From: Westiellopsis prolifica IICB1
GTDB taxonomy: Bacteria > Cyanobacteriota > Cyanobacteriia > Cyanobacteriales > Nostocaceae
NCBI RefSeq assembly: GCF_004323185.1
Contig: NZ_NAPS01000002.1
Span: 808,228-854,662 of the forward strand
Length of the DNA: 46,435 nt
Reading direction: 5' to 3'
A program made the position numbers and the translations under genes. Every line of letters begins with the position of its first letter. The stretch's first letter is position 1. Below are positions 7,549-18,805 of the stretch, piece by piece. The notes beneath the pieces were generated by a model. The model did no database searches and was not told the origin of the DNA. It saw nothing but the letters and a program-made list of their open reading frames with translations.

Positions 7549-9075
7549 CTAATCCCCACTCCCTTGGGGGAGTGGGGGCCGGTGAGTTCCCCAGAGGGGG
7601 CCCCACCTTAAGCGCTCCCCGCTCCCCAATTCATAAACCTGATGTCCTCTAATTTCTACCCCATGTTCAGCCAAACATTTTGTCCAACCTTCACGAGTAC
7701 CGATATCGCTTTTGTTTTTGAGTAATCCTAATTCAATTTCTTGTTTGGTGAGTTGAGAAAATTCTTCGTAAAGATGATAGTCAGGAGTTACAAATGTTTC
7801 TTTGCGGTGGAGTATGGGTGGATTTGCTCTGCTAGCATAATCTCGGTGAGTTATGTATAAAGTTTTTAAGTCGATCACAATGCTTGTTTTTAAAGCCGGA
7901 TGCGGATCAGTATCAAATTCTGGGTAAAGCAGATAAGAAATCTGTGATTTTTCGGTATCAAATTTTATTAATGTCGCATCATCAACACGTCCGATAGTCC
8001 TACTGGCACAGCCTTCGTAAATTCGTAACAAGGCATCAAGTTCACATAGAGCAGAAACGTGAACGTATAAAGCACTACGTGTACTTTTACCAATTTTACT
8101 TTTTTCGCAAGCAGTCTTTACGACTCCCGCTTTTCCTAAGCTAAACAGCTTCGCGTCAGCAACTTCACACGCTTCCTCATAGGAACCAAAAAAGGCTTTG
8201 ATATCGTGGCGCATTTCTGGTGATAACTTGTGCCATGAGGGGCGAGTTTCAAAATGAGTCAAAGCGAGATAAACTTGAATATCGAGAGAACGACGGTAGG
8301 CGATCGCATCCCATTCTGCTTCATCAGTAGCTTGCAAAACCACAGCAAAAGCTCGACGGAAATTACCAAATTCTTTTAATAATTCCTGTTCATTCTCCAA
8401 TTCGCCTTTGACTGGTAGTCTCCCGCGTTGAGCATGAAAATCCATTAACGGCTGAAGCATTTCTTGATAATCTTCAAACCGTTTAACTGGAATGCGGACT
8501 CTGGGCGTAGAATTTTTAGAGAAGAAGCGTAAAGCTTTGTAAGCTTCTTTTTCAGCTTCATCTCGAAACACAAAATAGATACCCAGCGCTACAGGTACAG
8601 CATCGACATTTAGTGTTTCATCAATGTATTTTTTGAGTTCTTCTTGCTGGTAATATTTCTGAAACGTGTTATGGCGGGTGACAACACCATCGCCATAGGG
8701 TATGAGATTGCGACTCGGAGCATTAACTAGGACTTGAGCAGCAACAATTAATACCTTTCGCGCCAGTGACCAGGCTTTTACAAGGGCTTGACGGCGTTCT
8801 TCTGTATCTTCAATCACATTCAGGATGTAACCCAAATTGACCACATCAGCAGGAATGCGATCGCGATCAGGAAAATAATAAGGGTCCCAGCCAGAACTGG
8901 TATAACCTAAATTGGTGATGCGATCGACATCACCACCGTATCCACAACCATAGTCAAAAAACGTAGTCTCTTTGTTTAGAATAGACCACTCGATTGCCAA
9001 CCTTACAGGGCGAGACAAATCAATGCGGAATATCGCAGCTCTATGGCGTTCAATTTCGATGTAGCTCTCGGACAT
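7549..9075 (-). CDS. DNA phosphorothioation-associated putative methyltransferase
   Basis: This 508-aa protein has a SAM-binding motif I at residues 41-49 (DYGCGYGGD), a downstream acidic-loop region and a long C-terminal domain. The opening E-R-H-R-A-A-I, ending in D-L-S-R-P-V, matches the methyltransferase family known to travel with dnd genes. Its target is not established; an effect on DNA or on Dnd protein activity is inference from linkage. It is the last gene of the minus-strand dnd run, 72 bp after dndE. The last ~20 residues (Trp/Pro/Gly-rich) are encoded by G/C-rich repeats that also occur near 32,850, so the native end is probably near residue 485. Confidence 0.88.
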   Translation of the reverse strand: MSESYIEIERHRAAIFRIDLSRPVRLAIEWSILNKETTFFDYGCGYGGDVDRITNLGYTSSGWDPYYFPDRDRIPADVVNLGYILNVIEDTEERRQALVKAWSLARKVLIVAAQVLVNAPSRNLIPYGDGVVTRHNTFQKYYQQEELKKYIDETLNVDAVPVALGIYFVFRDEAEKEAYKALRFFSKNSTPRVRIPVKRFEDYQEMLQPLMDFHAQRGRLPVKGELENEQELLKEFGNFRRAFAVVLQATDEAEWDAIAYRRSLDIQVYLALTHFETRPSWHKLSPEMRHDIKAFFGSYEEACEVADAKLFSLGKAGVVKTACEKSKIGKSTRSALYVHVSALCELDALLRIYEGCASRTIGRVDDATLIKFDTEKSQISYLLYPEFDTDPHPALKTSIVIDLKTLYITHRDYASRANPPILHRKETFVTPDYHLYEEFSQLTKQEIELGLLKNKSDIGTREGWTKCLAEHGVEIRGHQVYELGSGERLRWGPLWGTHRPPLPQGSGD

Positions 9076-9147
9076 AAGAGCAATTAAATTTATTAGTAGT
9101 TGGTAGTGAGTAGTTAGTAGTGTTTGTATTAATCACTAACCATAATT

Positions 9148-9534
9148 TCAATTATTGGTCGCTAATTCAATCAAATCTTCAATTTTCTTGATATTTGGAT
9201 CACCAGCTAAATACCCAATCCCACGATGCAAATGCAGGCGAAATTGGGTAACTAGGGTTTCTTTGTCTGTACCGTAACCGTCGTTATAACAGCGTTGTTT
9301 GAGAGCTAATAGCAGAATATCAGACATTTCGCCACCAAAAACGCGCCAAGTCATCTCGACATTACTATCTTGGGGAATTGGGACTGGGGAGGGTGCTGTG
9401 GGTTCTGCAAGAGAACGACAAAACGCCCAACGACACAGAATATTCCATTGGTCGATTTTGGTATTGCGTTTAAGTTTTGTCAGTTGTTCTTTGGCTGTTT
9501 GAGATAATTTGATGCGCTCGATAAGAGTTTCCAT
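9148..9534 (-). CDS. dndE: DNA sulfur modification protein DndE
   Basis: From the ATG at 9534 (METLIERIKLSQ) this is a 128-aa protein, the usual size for DndE. An upstream in-frame start would add 16 unrelated residues. DndE is a small, basic, helical protein that binds nicked DNA and is needed for phosphorothioate formation together with DndC and DndD. Recognisable parts are the N-terminal R-I-K-L-S-x-x-A-K-E-Q-L, the W-N-I-L-C-R-W-A-F-C-R-S-L motif and the C-terminal L-H-L-H-R-G-I-G-Y-L segment. It lies between the associated methyltransferase and a DUF4926/DUF6883-like pair that separates it by nearly 0.9 kb from dndD. Confidence 0.93.
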   Translation of the reverse strand: METLIERIKLSQTAKEQLTKLKRNTKIDQWNILCRWAFCRSLAEPTAPSPVPIPQDSNVEMTWRVFGGEMSDILLLALKQRCYNDGYGTDKETLVTQFRLHLHRGIGYLAGDPNIKKIEDLIELATNN

Positions 9535-9899
9535 AATATTTTGAATAGTCCACACAGGGTGACTTTGCTTATTTAGTAGCAAATCTATAGTAATGATTTT
9601 GGCAAGTTTTTAAGACAAATTAACTTAAACGAGAGAATATACGGAATAATACAATAATTCCCCTGCAAATGTTCTAATCAGTAGGAGAGTCTCAATGAAA
9701 CAAGTGTCACAACGCCTCGCTGTTATGTCACTTTTTGGAGGAGTACTGAAATAATTTATACCTTAATAACACCGCCAATTCTCTATAGTTCGTGCAACTA
9801 GATTGCGATCGCGGTAACGACTCAAATCAGCAGCAGATAACCTCAAACTCAGCATCAGGGGTTTTCAACCGTCCGCTGCATGTGACATTGTTGTGCCGC
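9535..9899. other. Intergenic gap inside the dnd run, with a 19-codon leader-like ORF
   Basis: This 365-bp stretch has no long ORF. On the plus strand a possible peptide of 19 residues (9695-9754, MKQVSQRLAVMSLFGGVLK) follows a good ribosome site (AGGAGAG, 6 nt before the ATG). It looks like the truncated start of a signal-peptide-bearing protein. The rest shows no recognisable feature apart from one HIP1 site near 9,816. The gap breaks the usual tight dndD-dndE spacing and may be a scar of the insertion described in the findings. Confidence 0.5.
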
Positions 9900-10148
9900 T
9901 TACACTGTTACCATTTCAGCTTTTGCATTGGGCGGTACTGGCTCGAAGTGCAAAACCATGATTTGCTCTGGACGTAACCCTAAAGACTCGTATGTACGCC
10001 CATTGCGATCGCTGAATTCAACTTCAAATGCAGTACCCTCCGCTAGTGTCTCAACAACTGTGCCAACCTGCCCACGCCACAAATTGTACTGGGGGAGGTC
10101 AACGACAAGAGCGACAACATCTAGCAACTTGACTGTATTGTTTATCAT
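9900..10148 (-). CDS. DUF4926-like protein
   Basis: This is an 82-aa protein from the ATG at 10148, chosen because AGAGGTGAT sits at ribosome-binding distance; an upstream TTG would add six residues. The sequence V-K-L-L-D-V-V-A-L, then G-Q-V-G-T-V-V-E and V-E-F-S-D-x-x-G-R-T-Y, reads as a small beta-barrel (SH3-like) and fits my recollection of DUF4926. It follows the DUF6883-like gene by 18 bp in the same direction, a pairing I associate with these two families. The function is unknown; an accessory or antitoxin-like role is only a guess. It is inserted between dndD and dndE. Confidence 0.75.
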   Translation of the reverse strand: MINNTVKLLDVVALVVDLPQYNLWRGQVGTVVETLAEGTAFEVEFSDRNGRTYESLGLRPEQIMVLHFEPVPPNAKAEMVTV

Positions 10149-10166
10149 GCTTATCACCTCTGCCAA

Positions 10167-10433
10167 TTATAGAGGATAGCAGGTCGTTAGTTTCGGAATC
10201 TCTGAATCATGCTCAATGATCCAGCCACTCCGAAGGGTTGCACTTTTATTTTGCCATTTGATCGTGAAATCTAGGGTGTAGCGTTGCCCAAACTCATCCC
10301 GTCTTCCCAACTGGGCTTCTTGAACTTTGACAACATCAAGAAGAATTTGACGCAGTTCCTCAGCATTATCAGCCGTCATTCCAAGAATTGACGAAAAAAG
10401 GCGTGCCTTGTGCTTGCCATCGTTGTGTTCCAA
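10167..10433 (-). CDS. DUF6883-like protein, apparently missing its normal N-terminus
   Basis: From a TTG this is 88 aa: it starts E-H-N-D-G-K-H-K-A-R-L-F, with R-Y-T-L-D-F-T-I and S-G-W-I-I-E-H-D later and L-T-T-C-Y at the end, which fits DUF6883. The reading frame stays open upstream and encodes I-R-K-L-R-D-Y-C-L-N, which also looks like the family. No start codon is present before it enters the dndD coding end in another frame. The family similarity stops at about 10458, exactly where dndD stops. So this gene was probably joined to dndD by recombination and lost ~15-20 N-terminal residues. It may be expressed from the TTG by coupling, or be defective. Confidence 0.65.
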   Translation of the reverse strand: MEHNDGKHKARLFSSILGMTADNAEELRQILLDVVKVQEAQLGRRDEFGQRYTLDFTIKWQNKSATLRSGWIIEHDSEIPKLTTCYPL

Positions 10434-10455
10434 ATTGAGGCAATAGTCACGCAGC

Positions 10456-12441
10456 TTACGAATAAAAATAACCTGCTTGTATGGTTGTTTGGCGGGTGGA
10501 TGAGTCGTATTTGAGGAGATATTCGCGGGCGATCGCTTCGTTTTCGCGCAAAGTTTTCACTTCTTTTTCTCCGATTTCGGTATCAGTGGAAAGTAATATT
10601 ACTTGATGAGAAGCTGACGGAAAGTAACGTTCGACTAAGTTAGTACGGTGCGATGAATCTAATCTTCCTAGTGGCGTATCAATTGCTACTGGTAAGCGCA
10701 GCCCGGAGACTCGTGCTAATCCCCAGAGGAAGGCGATCGCTAAAAGTTGTTTTTCCCCGGCGGAAAGGCGATGTTTGGGTACTGGTTGCGAGTGCAAATC
10801 AAATAGAGATAGGCTAAAAGTATTGGTATCAATGACGATGCGATGTACTAAGTCTGATTTGTGCAACAGATAGCGAAAGCATTCGGTGACTTCATTTTCT
10901 AATTTATTTAATTTTCTCAAAGTCAAGCGTTCACGAAACAGTTTGAGGGTTTCTTGAACTCTGGCTGAAGCTGTAATAATATGCTCTCTATTCTTCCGAT
11001 CAATTGTTTGTTCGGTATATTCTTTTAAATCTTTTTTAGACTTTTCAATAGTTGTTTCTAATTCAACTAAGTAACGGCGTGCAGTTTCGCAGCTAGCTTT
11101 AATTTCAGCAACTTTTTGTTGTGCTTTTCGCACCACATCACGGAGTTGTTCATACTCTTCTGGAGATGCTGCGGTTTGCATTTGTCTCTCGATATTAATT
11201 ATTTCTTCTTCTTTGTTTTTCAAATTTGATAATTGCTGTTTTGCAGAGTTTTTCGCATTTTGTAAATAATAAATTACATTACCTAGTTGACTTAAAGCTT
11301 CATCATCCGCTAACAACCAAGGTAGTTCTTTTTGTAAATTAGCATTTCGCGTCTTTTCGTCTTCTTTCAAAAAGAATTTGATTTTTTCAAGTTTTTGATT
11401 TTCGATTTCTAATTGACTAATTAAATTAATCAAACGTTGATCTCTTTCAAGTATAATATCCTGTGCTATTTGTGCTTGTCGGGTACGAAATTCTGTTTCT
11501 CCTTGTGCTTGGACTTGGGTAAGTAATGGTTGAATTAATGCTAACGGTAAAACATCAGCCGCAGATTCACATATTGTCTGACGAATTGCTTCTGCTGCGG
11601 TAGTTACTTCTTGTTTTTGTTGTTCTAAATGACTACGTTCTGCGGCTATTTTCCCGCCTTCCGAAAGGAATTTATCAACAGCCTCTTGTTCTTCTTTTTC
11701 TGATAATTTTAATTCTGCTTGTAGGGAAGTTAAATTTTGCTGTTGATGCTGAAATTCTTCCTGTAGCTGCTTGAGATTTTGTTCAATTTCTTCTAAGTTA
11801 TCTAAGTCTTGTTTTTCGGCTATTTCCTTGCGTTTGCGATTGACTAAAATTTCTATATCTACCGCTAATTTTTCCGCCAATTCTAGTCCTAAAAGAGCGC
11901 GAATTGCATCCACTACCATTGGTGGCGGTACTTCCTGTTCTGCTAGTTCTTTTACCTGTTCACCATCAAATAGAAATAAGTTAGAAATTCCTAAAGGTAG
12001 GAGATTTTCAATATAATCATCCCAAGTATTAACTAAAGCTTCAACAGGCCATGTATCATCATCACCTAAAATTCCTAAATGGTCTTTACCATCTTTAGGA
12101 TTTTTTTCCCAAGTTCTGACAATTCTATATTTGATGGGTTTGTCATTTTCAATATGTTCAAAGACTAACTCAACACGAGTTTTTTCATTCGGTTCTGCTT
12201 TACTATTAACACATTGAGTCAGAAAATGACTATAACTTAAATTTCCACGAGTAGAACATTGAGCGCGATGTCCATAAAGTGCAAGGCGAATTGCATCCAT
12301 GAGTGTGGTTTTTCCACCACCATTCATCCCACCTAAAAGTAGAATTGGGCGAGTATAATCATGGTTTTTTGGATTCAGATTGATTATTTGACGTCCATTA
12401 TAGGGACCAAAGTTTTGCAGAATAAGTTCAAGAAAAATCAT
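10456..12441 (-). CDS. dndD: DNA sulfur modification ATPase DndD
   Basis: This 661-aa SMC/Rad50-like ATPase has an N-terminal Walker A, GGMNGGGKTT, at residues 37-46. About 350 residues of heptad-rich coiled coil follow (roughly 190-540). Near residues 556-562 is the ABC signature LSAGEKQ, then the Walker B region P-V-A-I-D-T-P-L-G-R-L-D near 583-595 and a late S-T-D-T-E-I. DndD hydrolyses ATP and is thought to provide or regulate the DNA opening or nicking for sulfur insertion. It is full length, ending in G-Y-F-Y-S, close to the usual G-Y-F-W. It follows the 84-aa gene after a spacer with an inverted repeat. Confidence 0.95.
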   Translation of the reverse strand: MIFLELILQNFGPYNGRQIINLNPKNHDYTRPILLLGGMNGGGKTTLMDAIRLALYGHRAQCSTRGNLSYSHFLTQCVNSKAEPNEKTRVELVFEHIENDKPIKYRIVRTWEKNPKDGKDHLGILGDDDTWPVEALVNTWDDYIENLLPLGISNLFLFDGEQVKELAEQEVPPPMVVDAIRALLGLELAEKLAVDIEILVNRKRKEIAEKQDLDNLEEIEQNLKQLQEEFQHQQQNLTSLQAELKLSEKEEQEAVDKFLSEGGKIAAERSHLEQQKQEVTTAAEAIRQTICESAADVLPLALIQPLLTQVQAQGETEFRTRQAQIAQDIILERDQRLINLISQLEIENQKLEKIKFFLKEDEKTRNANLQKELPWLLADDEALSQLGNVIYYLQNAKNSAKQQLSNLKNKEEEIINIERQMQTAASPEEYEQLRDVVRKAQQKVAEIKASCETARRYLVELETTIEKSKKDLKEYTEQTIDRKNREHIITASARVQETLKLFRERLTLRKLNKLENEVTECFRYLLHKSDLVHRIVIDTNTFSLSLFDLHSQPVPKHRLSAGEKQLLAIAFLWGLARVSGLRLPVAIDTPLGRLDSSHRTNLVERYFPSASHQVILLSTDTEIGEKEVKTLRENEAIAREYLLKYDSSTRQTTIQAGYFYS

Positions 12442-12473
12442 AGTAATGTTTGATATTTAATTCTCATACAAAT

Positions 12474-12517
12474 ACGCAAAGTCGCAAATTTGATCTTAGC
12501 TGTTTGCGGCTTTGCGT
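12474..12517 (-). terminator. Imperfect inverted repeat upstream of dndD
   Basis: ACGCAAAG-TCGCAAA at 12474-12488 pairs with TTTGCG-CTTTGCGT at about 12503-12517, an imperfect stem with a ~14-nt loop. It sits between the 84-aa gene and dndD on their transcript. There is no clear U-tract on the minus strand, so it could be an attenuator or a processing site as well as a terminator. Confidence 0.4.
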
Positions 12518-12583
12518 AAATTAATTATTGATAGAGTTGGTATTGCCCACACTACCATATTTTTCACCAGCTGTTTTTAAAGT

Positions 12584-12838
12584 TCAGCTTGTGATTATAT
12601 TTCGGGTCAAAATACTCATGACTTCGCCGGGATTAGAAGTTGGTAATAATGGACTCCACTCATTAATTTGGGCAAAACCAAGCTTATAAAGGCTAATAAT
12701 TGTACTATTTACTCCTTTTTTTGAACCATATATTACCACTTTCACAGGTTCTCTGCCTGATGTTTTTTCTGTGGAAGTACTGTAGGAAACAGCAGGTGTG
12801 GAAGTAGGAAAGGGATCTGTTAAAAAGCTTTTAGTCAT
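12584..12838 (-). CDS. Conserved small cyanobacterial protein, unknown
   Basis: This 84-aa protein starts at an ATG. After a Ser/Thr/Pro-rich N-terminus (about 1-28) comes a compact domain: V-K-V-V-I-Y-G-S-K-K-G-V-N, then I-I-S-L-Y-K-L-G-F-A, then E-W-S-P-L-L-P-T, and P-G-E-V-M-S-I-L-T-R. I recall similar short proteins in many cyanobacteria, without known function. It is divergent from the XRE regulator across a region with two matching operators and is the first gene of the minus-strand dnd run. It is therefore likely controlled with dndD. Confidence 0.7.
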   Translation of the reverse strand: MTKSFLTDPFPTSTPAVSYSTSTEKTSGREPVKVVIYGSKKGVNSTIISLYKLGFAQINEWSPLLPTSNPGEVMSILTRNIITS

Positions 12839-12867
12839 TGGGATTCACCTGTTTGTTGTTAAGATTG

Positions 12868-12896
12868 TTGTTACCAATAGGTAACATAACTATCTT
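12868..12896 (+). promoter_or_regulatory. Candidate promoter of the XRE regulator
   Basis: TTGTTA at 12868-12873 and TATCTT at 12891-12896 are 17 bp apart, a fair sigma-70-type pair. The -35 overlaps operator 1 and the start point would fall just before operator 2, so a bound repressor would block it. This is inferred from spacing only. Confidence 0.4.
12870..12885. promoter_or_regulatory. Operator 1: GTTACC-AATA-GGTAAC
   Basis: This inverted repeat has 6-bp arms GTTACC/GGTAAC and lies 32 bp upstream of the minus-strand 84-aa gene. It matches the second palindrome at 12906-12921 at 15 of 16 positions. The centres are 36 bp apart, between the two divergent genes. It is probably bound by the adjacent XRE-type protein. 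Confidence 0.65.
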
Positions 12897-12905
12897 ACAC
12901 CCATT

Positions 12906-12921
12906 GTTACCTATAGGTAAC
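12906..12921. promoter_or_regulatory. Operator 2: perfect 16-bp palindrome
   Basis: GTTACCTATAGGTAAC is self-complementary over all 16 bp and lies 38 bp upstream of the XRE gene's ATG. Together with operator 1 it gives a nearly symmetric arrangement, expected for an autoregulating repressor that also controls the divergent dnd run. Confidence 0.7.
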
Positions 12922-12958
12922 GTTTACTCAGTCATGAGCCTTTGACACAATCAAAGGC

Positions 12959-13204
12959 ATGGGAAAAGCAGGAAAAGCGTTAAAACAGGTGTTAGAAACT
13001 CACGGAATCAGCCAAAATCAGTTAGCTGTGACAATGGGAACTGGACGACCAAACGTTCACCGTTGGGTGTACGAGATTAGAGATCCTGTTGCGGAAACGG
13101 TATTAGAAATTCGCGACGCGCTACAGAAAATTAATCCTGTAGCAGCCAAAGACTTTATCAGACTCTACTTAGGAGATGATTTTGAGGATGAGAAACAACT
13201 TTAA
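12959..13204 (+). CDS. XRE/Cro-type helix-turn-helix regulator
   Basis: This 81-aa protein starts at an ATG with AAAGG five bases upstream. Residues about 5-60 form an XRE helix-turn-helix: GKALKQVLETHGISQNQLA is the first part, then a turn M-G-T-G-R-P-N-V-H-R-W-V for the recognition helix, then helices around VAETVLEIRDALQKI. The C-terminus is acidic. It is a likely repressor of itself and of the divergent genes that lead into dndD, through the two GTTACC..GGTAAC palindromes. Dedicated repressors of dnd operons are known in other bacteria, but I see no direct resemblance to them. It converges on dndC through a large hairpin. Confidence 0.85.
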   Translation: MGKAGKALKQVLETHGISQNQLAVTMGTGRPNVHRWVYEIRDPVAETVLEIRDALQKINPVAAKDFIRLYLGDDFEDEKQL

Positions 13205-13330
13205 TTATCAGTCAAGTAAGTCAACCTAATTAAATATAAAATCCTCACGAGATAGATCCCCGAATTCTCAAAGGATACAGCTGGCGAATCAGGGGTATTA
13301 CCCTTCATTGAATGATTTTTCGTGATTCTA

Positions 13331-13371
13331 CCAAATGTAGAGACGTAGCATTGCTACGTCTCTACATTTGG
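13331..13371. terminator. 41-bp near-perfect palindrome between convergent genes
   Basis: Two perfectly complementary 20-bp arms (13331-13350 and 13352-13371) surround a single T. The core is TAGAGACGTAGCA, a motif also seen in dispersed cyanobacterial repeats. It lies between the 3' ends of the XRE gene and dndC. It could serve as a bidirectional terminator, although no long T-run follows, and may be a dispersed repeat that inserted here. Confidence 0.65.
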
Positions 13372-13481
13372 GTTAATGAGCGGTCAGATCCACAATTCGC
13401 CAACAGCATCCTCAAATAAGTCGGGGATCTAGGTATTATGAACGCTTCATTTTACGCATAAATTTAACTGATAACTGATAA

Positions 13482-15146
13482 CTATTCACTGTCCTTTTTT
13501 TGGAATTTCATATTCGCCCAAGTTTTCGATTTAGCTACTGATTTTGTAGTTGATGGGTTCTCTGTAGGATTTTCAATTAACTCATCCGTTACATTTGTAA
13601 TTTCATGAGTTGTAGTAACATCTCCTAAAGTCAACTGCTTGACTTTTTCGACATCGCCTTGAGTAATTGCTGTTTTCAAATCTCTTTTCATGTGAGCAAT
13701 ATCAATTGCTTCTTCACGAGAACGGGAACTAGTTTCAAAACATTTTTCTAGTGCATCATATATTCCCACGCGACGCGCTCTCTTACGAAATTGGCGTTCT
13801 GTATCTAATAACTTCGCCATTAGTTCAAGGTGCATAGCGTCATCTGCACAGATTTCTTCTAATACAGCCCATTCATCGCTACCTAAAAGACTGTAGTCAG
13901 CACCAGGGCGCGGATCTTGGAATTCTTCACCAGTCACTTCTTTATATATGCGGGGTAAACTATCATCGAATTCGTGTCTTTCTTCTAACCAAATGCGGCG
14001 AATTTCGCTCATTTCTTCTGAGGTTATTAATGTGATGTCGCGCATATTTTCTGGTGCTGTGCGACGCAATTGTTGTTGAATAGTTAGAAGTTTTCTGAGC
14101 CAATATTCTCGCGCTTCTTTAATGTATGGTCCAGGAATAGGCTCTACTGAAATTTCTTCATTGAGGTTACGTTCATAAAGTTGGACATCACCATTTCTAC
14201 GCCGAAAATCTCGTCTTTCGCGGTTTATTGGTGCATCTAATTCTTGACGAAAATCAAGAAGAGGTTGTAACCATTCTTTTTCTTCGTCATTTTGAATCAT
14301 TGCAGTTAGTGATTTATCTTCACTTACTAGCGTACAAACCCAGCAACCAAAACGAGAGCTACCACAACTAGGAGTAGATGTATCAACAACTAAAGGACAT
14401 TCATTATCAGCGGTAGCACCTCTGTACATCGAGAATAAATCCTTGTTGCTATATCCCCAAGGATTTTCCCATTGCATGAGATAAAGCCAAACCTCATCAT
14501 TTCGCCAATCTTCTACAGGACTGTAAACTAGAGAATTTGGCAAATTCATGTTAGGACTGAGGCGATCGCGTACCCGTTTGCTTTCCCATTGTTTCATTCT
14601 ATAAGCACGTTTTGTACTTTCGGCTTTGCGAGTACCTAAAACAAGAATAGCTTCTCCACAACTACGAATAACATTACGAATAAAGCGGTTAGATGGATTT
14701 ATTTTCAGACGTTCTGTACACCACCTAAATTTTGGTTTTGGTGCTGGATAACCTTTACCTATTAAACCGACCCAGAATGTTTCTTTGGGTTCTGGTTGTA
14801 GTAAATGGGGTTCAAATGGTAGCTTTTGATCAAGAGCAGCCAATTTCATTTGCTTGAGAGAGTTGCGTACCCAAACAGAGACATAGGGATTTTCTACTAA
14901 TGTATCTGTTGTAATTACATGAATAGTTTTAGTTCGCTTTTCGGGTGGAAGTTGTGCGATCGCATTCCATACCAGTTGTAATACACACGAACTATCTTTT
15001 CCCCCGGAATAACCCACAACCCAAGGTATTTCGTCCAAACAATACAAATCTTGTATTTCTGTAGTCAAAGCTTGGATCTCTTCTACTAACTCTGCTACAG
15101 TACGCGATTGCTGACTTTTATTTTCTGGCTGTTGTGCGATGACCAT
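13482..15146 (-). CDS. dndC: DNA phosphorothioation sulfurtransferase DndC
   Basis: This 554-aa protein is PAPS-reductase-like. The ATP pyrophosphatase P-loop SGGKDSS is at residues 47-53. R-W-C-T-E-R-L-K (Cys143) and later cysteines C250, C261, C268 and C271 (the last three in PSCGSSRFGCWVC) fit the ligands of the 4Fe-4S cluster known in DndC. The enzyme activates the DNA backbone and passes sulfur from the cysteine desulfurase (DndA/IscS) to it. The C-terminal ~60 residues are Thr/Glu/Lys-rich and less ordered. It is separated from dndD by the XRE gene and the 84-aa gene, and is divergent from dndB. It is complete, of normal length. Confidence 0.95.
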   Translation of the reverse strand: MVIAQQPENKSQQSRTVAELVEEIQALTTEIQDLYCLDEIPWVVGYSGGKDSSCVLQLVWNAIAQLPPEKRTKTIHVITTDTLVENPYVSVWVRNSLKQMKLAALDQKLPFEPHLLQPEPKETFWVGLIGKGYPAPKPKFRWCTERLKINPSNRFIRNVIRSCGEAILVLGTRKAESTKRAYRMKQWESKRVRDRLSPNMNLPNSLVYSPVEDWRNDEVWLYLMQWENPWGYSNKDLFSMYRGATADNECPLVVDTSTPSCGSSRFGCWVCTLVSEDKSLTAMIQNDEEKEWLQPLLDFRQELDAPINRERRDFRRRNGDVQLYERNLNEEISVEPIPGPYIKEAREYWLRKLLTIQQQLRRTAPENMRDITLITSEEMSEIRRIWLEERHEFDDSLPRIYKEVTGEEFQDPRPGADYSLLGSDEWAVLEEICADDAMHLELMAKLLDTERQFRKRARRVGIYDALEKCFETSSRSREEAIDIAHMKRDLKTAITQGDVEKVKQLTLGDVTTTHEITNVTDELIENPTENPSTTKSVAKSKTWANMKFQKKDSE

Positions 15147-15353
15147 TTCTCCCTTCCTCTGGAATCACAGGTGATAGATCGCTCGATTCCCCCAAGCTTG
15201 GGGAAATAGTGCAATATTTTACTCACCCTTCCTATGTGTACTGTAAACTTAACCCTAATATTCTAAATATTTAACGTTTTTAAAAACTTTATCAGTAAAA
15301 TCAATTTTTGTAGAACAATATTTTGATCACAACTTGAAATTTTCAAAATTAAC
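15147..15353. promoter_or_regulatory. Divergent dndC-dndB promoter region with a CCCCAAGCTTGGGG palindrome
   Basis: The 207-bp spacer must hold the promoters of both genes. At 15190-15203 lies a perfect 14-bp palindrome, CCCCAAGCTTGGGG, close to dndC. DndB-like proteins are known as regulators of dnd expression, so this is a possible binding site, but similar G/C-rich palindromes occur as repeats in cyanobacteria. The XRE operators (GTTACC..GGTAAC) are not present here. Confidence 0.45.
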
Positions 15354-16955
15354 ATGAATCCAAGCGCAAATAACCCAACTGCTGACATTGCAAGTGAGTA
15401 TTTAGAACGGGACAACAAAGATAAACAGGTACTAGCTATTTTGCTAGAAAAGTTTATGAACCAAAAAAACCAGATTCTAGTTCAGAAAACTGAGATGGGT
15501 GGTACTGAAGCTTATATCAGTTCTGTTACCTTGGAATGGTTTGCGGGTCGGGTTCGCTTTGCGTCTGCTTTACCTTTGCTTCAGCAAAAATATAATCCTC
15601 AGACAGATAATATTGATATTGATGCAGAAAGTATTGACGAAATTCAGCAACGTCCTTTGGATTGGTCACGTCAATTACCCCTCACACAATATTTAGCAGG
15701 TCGAAAAAACCATAAGTTTCCACCTGTGCTAGTAGTGATTAACCAAGCGTGGGTTGATGACCCCAAAGCTGCTGAGTGGGATAGTCAAGGACGAGCTGTA
15801 CAATCTACCACAGCTTTTACAGCTCTAGATCAAGAAGAAAAAGTTGGTTTACTTAATGTTTCTGAAGAGGATGTAACAATTTACGCATTAGATGGTCAAC
15901 ACCGACTCATGGGGGTACAGGGGTTGATGGAGTTATTAAAAACTGGCAAACTTCAGCGTTATAAGAAGGAAAAAACCCCAGATGACACTTTCATTACAGT
16001 TGATGATTTAATTGAACAATATCACCTTCAACCAGCTTATCTGCAAACCTTACCGAAAGAAAAAATAGGGATTGAATTTATTTGTGCAGTTGAAAAAGGC
16101 GAAACTCGCGAACAAGCAAGACGACGGGTGCGATCAATATTTGTTCATGTAAATTTAATGGCTGCACCTTTAACAAAAGGTCAGTTAGCACAGTTAAATG
16201 AAGATGATGGTTTTTCGATTGTTGCAAGAAAAATTGCTGTGGTACATCCACTTTTGGAACAGCGTGAAGGTAGAAAACCTCGTGTTAATTGGAATAGTGC
16301 AACAGTTGCAGCCAAATCAACTGTTTTGACGACGCTACAAGCTCTTACAGATATGTCTGAGCGATATTTAGGGCAAAAATTTCCTCATTGGAAACCTTTG
16401 GATAAAGGTCTAATTCCCAACCGTCCAGAGAATCAGGAACTTGAAGAGGGAATACAAGAATTTCACAAGCTTTTTGATGGTTTGGCAAGTCTTTCGAGTT
16501 ATAAGCTTTTAGAAGATGAGGAGACACCAGCTCTGCGAAAATTCAGCTTTGAAAAGGACGGAGGTGAAGGAAATATGCTTTTCCGTCCTGTTGCTCAAGT
16601 AGCTGTTGCACAAGCTTTGGGTATTTTGGTTTTCCGCAAAGGTTTCAAATTGGACGAGCTTGTTAAGAAATTGCGAAAATTTGACCAGCAGGGTGGTTTT
16701 AGTGGAATGGAGTTTCCCCAATCTTTATGGTATGGCGTTTTGTATGATCCAAATAAAAAGCGTGTCCAAGTTGCTGGAAGGGATCTCGCAGCGAAGTTAC
16801 TAATTTATATTTTGGGTGGTATTCAAGATCAAATGGAACGTGCTGAACTTCGCAAAGCTTTGGCTGATGCTAGAACAATTGAGAATAAAACTATGGGTTT
16901 TGATGGTAATTTTGTTGAGCCAAAACAGGTAGGACTTCCACCGATTCTTTCTTGA
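15354..16955 (+). CDS. dndB: DGQHR-domain protein DndB
   Basis: This 533-aa protein has the DndB signature D-G-Q-H-R at residues 180-184 (ALDGQHRLMG). The N-terminal region contains a beta-rich G-R-V-R-F segment, and a late R-R-V-R-S-I-F-V-H-V-N-L motif follows. DndB proteins regulate dnd gene expression and tune modification and are not strictly needed for it; DNA binding and ATP hydrolysis have been reported for some. At 533 aa it is longer than the ~360-380 aa of many enterobacterial DndB proteins, the extra being insertions and a longer C-terminal half. It is divergent from dndC and followed 165 bp later by a second, interrupted DGQHR gene. Confidence 0.9.
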   Translation: MNPSANNPTADIASEYLERDNKDKQVLAILLEKFMNQKNQILVQKTEMGGTEAYISSVTLEWFAGRVRFASALPLLQQKYNPQTDNIDIDAESIDEIQQRPLDWSRQLPLTQYLAGRKNHKFPPVLVVINQAWVDDPKAAEWDSQGRAVQSTTAFTALDQEEKVGLLNVSEEDVTIYALDGQHRLMGVQGLMELLKTGKLQRYKKEKTPDDTFITVDDLIEQYHLQPAYLQTLPKEKIGIEFICAVEKGETREQARRRVRSIFVHVNLMAAPLTKGQLAQLNEDDGFSIVARKIAVVHPLLEQREGRKPRVNWNSATVAAKSTVLTTLQALTDMSERYLGQKFPHWKPLDKGLIPNRPENQELEEGIQEFHKLFDGLASLSSYKLLEDEETPALRKFSFEKDGGEGNMLFRPVAQVAVAQALGILVFRKGFKLDELVKKLRKFDQQGGFSGMEFPQSLWYGVLYDPNKKRVQVAGRDLAAKLLIYILGGIQDQMERAELRKALADARTIENKTMGFDGNFVEPKQVGLPPILS

Positions 16956-17120
16956 ATTTTTGCGGTAATAGCTTGAATATCTTTTAAAAGTCATGTTCTA
17001 AAAGTTCCAGGATGTACTTTTACATTGCTTTTTTGCTTCTTATGTCATTTTTGATAGCCGAAAATTTTATATTAGTTATAATAAGCATGAAACAATTTAT
17101 ACTAAGATCCAATTATTTAT

Positions 17121-18305
17121 ATGGACGAAACGAACAATATTGTTACGAACAATGTCTCACATGATGTCAAAGCTAAACTCAATGCATTGCTTGAGCCATT
17201 CTTTTCAGAACATTATCGGGAACCTTGCTATCCTGGGCTAATTTTTCAGCAAGGGAAACGAAAAATGCTACAAATTAATGTACCAGCCAAGGATTTACCT
17301 ACTCTTCTCTAAGCTAAACCCTCCACTAACAATGATCCTGAATCAGGAAAAAATCGTCCAGAGGTTAAAGGTCATGCTGATGAAATAAAAGATTATGTTA
17401 TTGATCGAGCTAAAGCAGATAAACCCTGGGTTCTAGGGACAATTACAGCAAATGTTGATGAGGAGTATATTAAAATACACGATTTGGGTAGGGGAATTTG
17501 TATAGTTGTTATCCCTAATGGAGTTAAATTAGATATCACCGATGGTCAGCATCGTAAAAGTGCAATTCACCAATTGATATTCAGTGATGAAAGCCACTTA
17601 ATTAGTCATGACGATTTTGCAATTACGTTGATTTTAGAGGGAGATAAGCGTCAGTGCCAAACGGACTTTCGAGATATGGCTCAAACGAAACAATTGGATA
17701 AATCTTTATTGTTGTCGTTTGGTGAGTTTGAAGGTAGAGTTGGAATCACTAAAAACTTGATAGAACAAGTGCGAATGTTCCAAGGAAAAGTAGAGAAAAT
17801 CAAAAAATCTCCAGCTACTAAACAAAAGTTGATTTACACAACTAACTACCTAGCTCGTTTCGTAAGTTGTGTTTTTGCTGACAATCCAAATGATGAATTA
17901 CAGGGTTGTGATGTTGAACAATTATCAGAATCTCTAGTTGATTGCTTAAATAACTTTTTCTCAGAATGCAAAGATACAAAGGATATTTTTGAGACTAATT
18001 TTGAAAGACTTACAATCAACCAAATAACTGCTTTTAAAGAATATTCTTTATTAGGAGTAAGTGTTGGTCTCGAAGTTCTGGGAAGATTACTACACTGGAC
18101 ATATAACGTTGATAGAAATTATTTTGATTTACAACAAGTTTCATTACTTGCACAAATAGACTGGTCGCGGAATAACAGTCTTTGGGAAAACAATGTAGTT
18201 AGAAAAGCTGTAAATTCCGATGGTATAGCCTATAAAGTTTCTACCAGCCCTACTGCTGTGATGGATGCAGTTAGAATGGTAAAAGCCAAATTGGGATGGA
18301 CATAA
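17121..18305 (+). pseudogene. Second DGQHR-domain (DndB-like) gene broken by one in-frame TAA
   Basis: An open frame of about 394 codons is split by a single stop, TAA at 17310-17312, after 63 residues ending in D-L-P-T-L-L. The same frame stays open from 17313 to 18305 without another stop or any frameshift. The post-stop part carries I-T-D-G-Q-H-R-K-S-A (Asp141-Arg145 counted from 17121) and a D-M-A-Q-T-K segment typical of DGQHR proteins. The 273-residue piece from a TTG at 17484 has no good ribosome site. A nonsense mutation is the simplest reading; stop-codon read-through or a sequencing error are alternatives. It is unlike dndB outside the motif, so it is a paralogue rather than a duplicate. 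Confidence 0.85.
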
Positions 18306-18331
18306 ATATTTGTTGTTTAGCAGAAATTAAA

Positions 18332-18805
18332 TTAAGAGAGGAATTTACTTAAATCGAATTCCTCTTCTTGCTTATCTTTATTAGTTCTTATATGAGTCAG
18401 AATTAACAAAATTCGTTCTGTATAGTCTACTGCTCCTCGCAATTCACCTTGCAAAATTTCTAATCCGCCATTAGCATACTCTTCAAAAATATGGTTGCGG
18501 TTAGTTTCATATTCTTCTTCGCCTAATGAGAGGATTTTGATATCTTGAGTTTCGGTAATTCCCAGTAGTTTGATCACCCAATCATTACCCACAGATGCAA
18601 AGTATTCTAGCCTGATTGGTGATGGTTCTCTTTTAGAAATTTCTCCTAAAGGGACTCGCTTTTTATGCTTTGCACCTAAAGCAGCAGCAAACACTATTAC
18701 ATCAGCAAAGGTTTGAAAAGGCCCAGTTCCACCATCAGCTGATGTTAAAGCCTTGACCAACTCAGCTTTGTCTTTTGCAACTCTAATTCTACCTGTTTCC
18801 GCCAT
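18332..18805 (-). CDS. Dnd system-associated protein 4
   Basis: This is a 157-aa protein from the ATG at 18805; a TTG would add three residues. The sequence R-I-R-V-A-K-D-K-A-E-L-V, then G-P-F-Q-T-F-A-D-V-I-V-F-A-A-A-L-G, then K-K-R-V-P-L and the C-terminal D-L-S-K-F-L-S matches the small protein family annotated as Dnd-associated protein 4. Its role in phosphorothioation is not defined. It is convergent with the broken DGQHR gene (26 bp apart) and marks the end of the dnd island on this side. Confidence 0.8.
   Translation of the reverse strand: MAETGRIRVAKDKAELVKALTSADGGTGPFQTFADVIVFAAALGAKHKKRVPLGEISKREPSPIRLEYFASVGNDWVIKLLGITETQDIKILSLGEEEYETNRNHIFEEYANGGLEILQGELRGAVDYTERILLILTHIRTNKDKQEEEFDLSKFLS

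Follow-up and report, generated by a model that had tools for sequence, protein, structure and literature searches.

The described systems closest to the locus analysed here, cited throughout from excerpts of the papers named, are the DndBCDE-DndFGH restriction-modification system, the DndCDEA-PbeABCD system of the archaeon H. jeotgali A29 (PMC6459918) and the systems with a CxC ABC-ATPase and a clade-2 DndE (PMC10853773). Phosphorothioate-dependent antiviral action without cleavage has been reported (PMC6459918), which is disputed in PMC10853773 because the vast majority of PbeA proteins carry a nuclease; tandem Dnd and CxC systems were counted there in 936 bacterial taxa, and the word "cyanobacteria" does not appear in the main text of that paper. 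For Cyanobacteria, Jian et al. 2021 (PMC8569181) described dnd genes enriched in Nostocales, in varied configurations and with no dndFGH, located the origin of the dnd genes within Cyanobacteriales, and proposed an antioxidant start of dnd because restriction systems are absent in Cyanobacteria. The locus is a dnd island at 7.5-18.8 kb of the window, by which is meant the whole analysed stretch of 46,435 nucleotides (C8:808228-854662) from the 7.3 Mb genome of Westiellopsis prolifica IICB1. The island likely comprises the modification arm and a single effector gene, pbeD, of a split DndCDE-PbeABCD system, which would be coupled in trans and probably exclude unmarked DNA without cleavage.

Profile annotation of the open reading frames (ORFs) of the window, which reached to 25 kb, placed the following genes in the island:

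7549..9075, minus strand, DNA phosphorothioation-associated putative methyltransferase (TIGR04096, 704.9 bits, cut-off 150).
9148..9534, minus strand, dndE, 128 aa from ATG (TIGR03184, 139.9 bits, cut-off 71.85; PF08870, 156.2 bits).
10456..12441, minus strand, dndD, ABC-type ATPase (TIGR03185, 725.7 bits, cut-off 245.85).
13482..15146, minus strand, dndC, sulfurtransferase (TIGR03183, 706.5 bits, cut-off 290.4).
15354..16955, plus strand, DGQHR-domain DndB-family gene, 533 aa, intact (TIGR03187, 190.4 bits; PF14072, 41.8 bits, cut-off 29.1).
17121..18305, plus strand, dndB, carrying an in-frame TAA stop codon at 17310-17312 (PF14072, 211 bits on the last 273 aa).
18332..18805, minus strand, dnd4 (Dnd-associated protein 4), putative pbeD (TIGR04062, 198.7 bits, cut-off 74.25).

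DndC, DndD and DndE, by which membership of the Dnd modification system was judged, all scored above the curated cut-offs; dndC was the sole TIGR03183 match across the genome, and the dndE product matched the DndE structure 7x4e of the PDB (E 1.8e-5). The initial annotation, made from the sequence alone, had listed dndC, dndD, dndE, the methyltransferase and Dnd-associated protein 4 in this interval and was borne out for each of them at the curated cut-offs. It had also correctly placed dndA outside the window: dedicated DndA (TIGR03235) gave 10 matches in the genome, the best at 437.6 bits under a cut-off of 480, and none in the window. IscS is able to replace DndA (PMC10853773).

The genes pbeA, pbeB and pbeC were found intact on another contig (C1), with pbeA and pbeC at 191-195 kb, after OTC and lexA. 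The restriction module elsewhere in the genome that the initial annotation had suggested as one option is thus supported, and its other option, modification without linked restriction, is not needed. PbeA scored 672.7 bits with TIGR04095 (cut-off 600), and PbeC scored 1174 bits and shows in its translation the CxC motif of the systems described in PMC10853773. PbeB is a 55-aa ORF overlapping the start of pbeC, and such an ORF was present in 49/50 pbeC-bearing relatives. The four Pbe genes do not form one cassette near dnd, pbeABC on C1 being at least about 1 Mb from dnd4 and dndC on C8 however the contigs join.

The fourth Pbe gene is very probably dnd4, whose product would have the DndE fold and act as the partner of PbeC. 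PbeD is called a DndE cognate in PMC10853773, and dnd4 answered to this description in a comparison outside which H. jeotgali PbeD itself lay. Phylogenetic profiling had linked TIGR04062 and TIGR04095 to the Dnd system (ProPhylo, PMC3226654). There, in 2011, TIGR04095 was designated a phosphorothioation-dependent restriction enzyme and TIGR04062 was an uncharacterised protein, here assigned, very probably, to PbeD; both of these phosphorothioation-dependent families were found in the genome. In relatives of the window the order is that of the archaeal cassette, pbeC then pbeD. Reading "Dnd-associated protein 4" as PbeD would allow annotators to recognise split systems.

The system shares DndC, DndD, DndE, a PbeA helicase, a small PbeB, a PbeC ATPase and PbeD with that of H. 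jeotgali A29 (PMC6459918), as judged against plasmid genes at the same positions rather than the A29 proteins themselves. It differs in that no dedicated dndA was found, PbeA is without a PLD domain, the pbe genes are split between two distant places, and a DGQHR protein and a methyltransferase are added. With DndBCDE-DndFGH it shares DndC, DndD, DndE and a DndB-family protein, whereas the operon is non-compact, the closer dndB is interrupted and the genome gave no DndF match. The search for DndFGH was aimed at DndF alone, which is reported from all taxa with DndFGH (PMC10853773), and returned 0 matches with TIGR03238 and PDLC02672, the latter profile having matched 0/14 control genomes and having as its sole positive one partial match among 386 genomes of the phylum. 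The initial annotation had allowed for dndFGH just outside the window as part of the same unit; DndF is missing from the genome as stated, yet a partner gene, dnd4 as the putative pbeD, lies inside the window.

No PLD/HKD nuclease domain was found in PbeA, for which Pfam gave helicase-type domains only (E ≤ 0.1), and the PADLOC PbeA profiles aligned to it from profile position 235 or later. An HKD nuclease is present in the vast majority of the CxC systems (PMC10853773) and absent here. PbeA was 404-524 aa long in 30 relative loci. The short form is not unique to this group, since PbeA of 469-477 aa was also found on a Pseudanabaena plasmid and two haloarchaeal plasmids; the protein was 694-720 aa long on three others. 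A PbeB profile built from 50 sequences and run against 1,075 frames of six plasmid loci reached L107 (E 1.2e-22), L108 (7.4e-6) and L109 (0.0046), and did not reach L110, L111 and L112 at E 1. On the Pseudanabaena galeata plasmid (L107, 3993-10147), pbeA, a small gene, pbeC and "protein 4" lie within about 6.2 kb, and dndC is not annotated in the 14-kb stretch of that locus. A helicase-only PbeA bears directly on the dispute whether Pbe systems cut DNA.

By analogy with the studied relatives, on which the proposed marking, motif and invader exclusion are based, a housekeeping cysteine desulfurase would hand sulfur to DndC, DndD and DndE would place the complex on DNA, and DndCDE would mark self DNA with phosphorothioate at a short motif. 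In the archaeal system the motif is GATC, a sequence also contained in the HIP1 octamer that is frequent in cyanobacterial genomes. PbeC-PbeD, a predicted second DndD/DndE-like ATPase pair, would scan DNA together with PbeA, a putative SF2 helicase without a nuclease domain, and the small PbeB. The Pbe proteins may then block replication of unmarked incoming DNA with no cutting.

The co-occurrence of Pbe and Dnd genes was surveyed in 243 genomes evenly sampled from the order, which we take to be Cyanobacteriales of GTDB, with PbeC and DndC called at E ≤ 1e-60 and TIGR04062 at E ≤ 1e-10. PbeC was found in 201 genomes, DndC in 191 and TIGR04062 in 200; PbeC and DndC occurred together in 186, PbeC only in 15, DndC only in five and neither in 37. 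The corresponding counts by genus were 87, 7, 2 and 14 (p 6.6e-11, counted by hand and uncorrected for common descent). All three proteins were present in 185 genomes and none in 35, and PbeC and dnd4 were found without DndC in 11, five of which are at least 97% complete, so that Pbe may rely on a different mark in these genomes. PbeC was also found in 22/22 genomes searched, namely the window's own, 19 relatives with a dnd stretch without pbeC (some of these stretches being short) and two linked controls.

These counts bear on the explanation that the modification is solitary, with marks for gene regulation or redox protection and with Pbe as a separate system. DndF was not found in the genome, the distribution is near-core, and an antioxidant or epigenetic start was argued by Jian et al. 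2021 (PMC8569181) from absent restriction genes. That premise, cyanobacterial dnd without a restriction partner, is undercut by PbeC in 186/191 DndC-bearing genomes and by pbeC beside dnd4 in most informative loci (see below), and we regard solitary modification as unlikely. The survey of Jian et al. 2021 sought dndFGH, from which we infer that Pbe would not have been counted. The PbeC rate removes the absence-of-restriction premise and does not by itself settle the role of the marks.

The split itself was examined in 99 genomes with all three places among the matches listed. Among these matches, all three genes lay within 20 kb in 55 genomes, dnd4 and dndC only in 13, dnd4 and pbeC only in eight, and none together in 23, the unlinked counts being inflated by fragmented assemblies. 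In five assemblies of at most 10 contigs, a single contig carries both pbeC and dndC at a distance of 0.87-6.25 Mb. PbeC and DndC are thus kept whether linked or not. This retention, with linkage often broken, weighs against the explanation that Dnd and Pbe were linked in the ancestor of the order and persist by descent only, without a shared function. Shared gene order and a partly vertical inheritance of the cyanobacterial DndD tree (PMC8569181) would fit descent; against it, PbeC, DndC and dnd4 are all missing from 14 genomes of nine genera and nine families (counted by hand; completeness is below 90% in four of the 14, and three of the nine genera include other genomes that carry one or more of these genes). 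Persistence by descent alone is accordingly improbable, and the split system coupled in trans is preferred.

For the counts of gene order, a DndC scan gave 410 encoding stretches, of which the best 80, nearly all Nostocales by record titles, were used. The nearest named relatives by DndC identity were Fischerella muscicola SAG 1427-1 (99%), Pelatocladus maniniholoensis (97%) and Fischerella PCC 9431 (96%). A second DndD-like ATPase adjoins dnd4 in relatives; it is PbeC in both annotated loci, with PbeA before it in one. The pbeC gene was seen in 50/80 loci, 54 to 3,359 bp from dnd4, and stood beside dnd4 in 46 of the 55 loci that include dnd4 along with 4.5 kb or more of upstream sequence; the nine of 55 without it include F. 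muscicola SAG 1427-1, Fischerella PCC 9431 and F. muscicola PCC 7414. In Fischerella PCC 9431 a single scaffold carries pbeC and dndC, separated by about 1.9 Mb. OTC-lexA-pbeA-pbeB-pbeC was intact in 3/4 Fischerella-group genomes opened, and in the fourth the contig starts at lexA. The break point is not always the same, as the L077 and L015 genomes keep dnd4 beside pbeC and have no pbeC in the dndC stretch.

The order and orientation dnd4> DGQHR< dndC> were found in 66/66 loci showing dnd4, DGQHR and dndC. Of the 62 loci reaching 9.9 kb or more past dndC, 37 showed all of dndD, dndE, the methyltransferase and ampG, and one or more was not seen in the other 25; the layout is thus constant upstream and variable downstream. 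No dndD was seen within 10 kb after an intact dndC in five of these 25 loci (L010, L011, L062, L070 and L073), and the modification genes themselves are thus also scattered in some relatives. The DGQHR gene was present in 78/80 loci, the methyltransferase in 44/80 and the flanking ampG in 51/80. The layout of the island is therefore old and not reorganised as the initial annotation had it, the non-compact order being common to all informative relatives; its observation is confirmed and its interpretation partly supported.

In all 19 relative loci that show PbeA preceded by 1 kb or more of sequence, lexA stands directly before pbeA, as at L093 (13014-18883). The pbe effector genes beside lexA are retained even far from dnd. 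We tentatively propose, with the odds somewhat against it, that nuclease-free PbeABCD phosphorothioation in the order is near-core, vertically inherited and chromosomal rather than a mobile defence island, with lexA-adjacent effectors and a role as a general check on self DNA or replication, and that the antioxidant-origin idea is wrong. If so, phage exclusion would be only one use of the system.

The initial annotation had listed dndB as present, which holds for an intact DGQHR/DndB-family gene; the gene closer to DndB is cut by an in-frame stop. The intact gene (15354-16955) is, judged by its profile matches, among which TIGR03233 (DndB) does not figure, a DGQHR-domain paralogue of DndB. The interrupted gene (17121-18305) is the nearer of the two to DndB: apart from the stop, its frame aligns to the DndB of a relative (residues 1-388, 73% identity), and it has no intact frame, the part after the stop reaching 56.6 bits with the DndB equivalog TIGR03233 under a cut-off of 328. 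The stop could be a sequencing error.

A system in decay, with dndB interrupted, pbe moved away and a DUF pair inserted, would account for this stop, and no significant match to dndB was found between dnd4 and DGQHR in 5/5 other loci examined (L004, L005, L006, L007 and L041). Such decay is very improbable in view of the ratios of nonsynonymous to synonymous substitution rates (dN/dS), which were 0.02-0.16 for dndC, dndD, dndE, the methyltransferase, the DGQHR gene and dnd4 and 0.00-0.18 for pbeA, pbeB and pbeC, the compared stretches being without stops. Each gene was compared with four or five relatives, dS being saturated against more distant ones. Gene content, order, the split, conservation and selection are directly established by these comparisons, and the split DndCDE-PbeABCD system remains the preferred reading.

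The smaller features between the dnd genes are as follows:

9900..10166, minus strand, DUF4926 gene between dndD and dndE (PF16277, 94.8 bits).
10167..10433, minus strand, DUF6883 gene between dndD and dndE (PF21814, 75.3 bits).
12584..12838, minus strand, 84-aa ORF with no family match, divergent from the XRE gene.
12870..12885, no strand, operator-like palindrome of 16 bp between the XRE gene and the 84-aa ORF.
12906..12921, no strand, second operator-like palindrome of 16 bp, 36 bp from the first.
12959..13204, plus strand, XRE/Cro-type regulator of 81 aa (HTH_3, 21.9 bits, slightly below the cut-off of 23).

The non-compact layout reported by the initial annotation is as described, with dndC and dndD set apart by the XRE gene, the 84-aa ORF and the two palindromes, and dndD and dndE by the DUF6883 and DUF4926 genes. 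The DUF6883 gene is possibly short at its start because the profile match begins at position 23. DUF6883 had no match in the 80 relative loci, and DUF4926 was found between dndD and dndE in 0/57 relatives with both genes; as a guess, the two genes (9900-10433) might form a small pair that is mobile or toxin-antitoxin-like.

The XRE gene was found at the same place in 15/80 relatives, paired with the 84-aa ORF in 14/80. The palindrome pattern had two matches in the window and 0 in 100 shuffles. With 16 bp and at most one mismatched pair allowed, at least one palindrome was kept at these positions in 11/16 XRE loci (the window's and those of 15 relatives), both in five of them, and neither in L025, L026, L033, L038 and L049. 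The letters of the palindromes differ in L009, L040 and L060, where both halves are altered together, as expected of a regulator's binding site; the XRE protein might, at a guess, control dndD and later genes.

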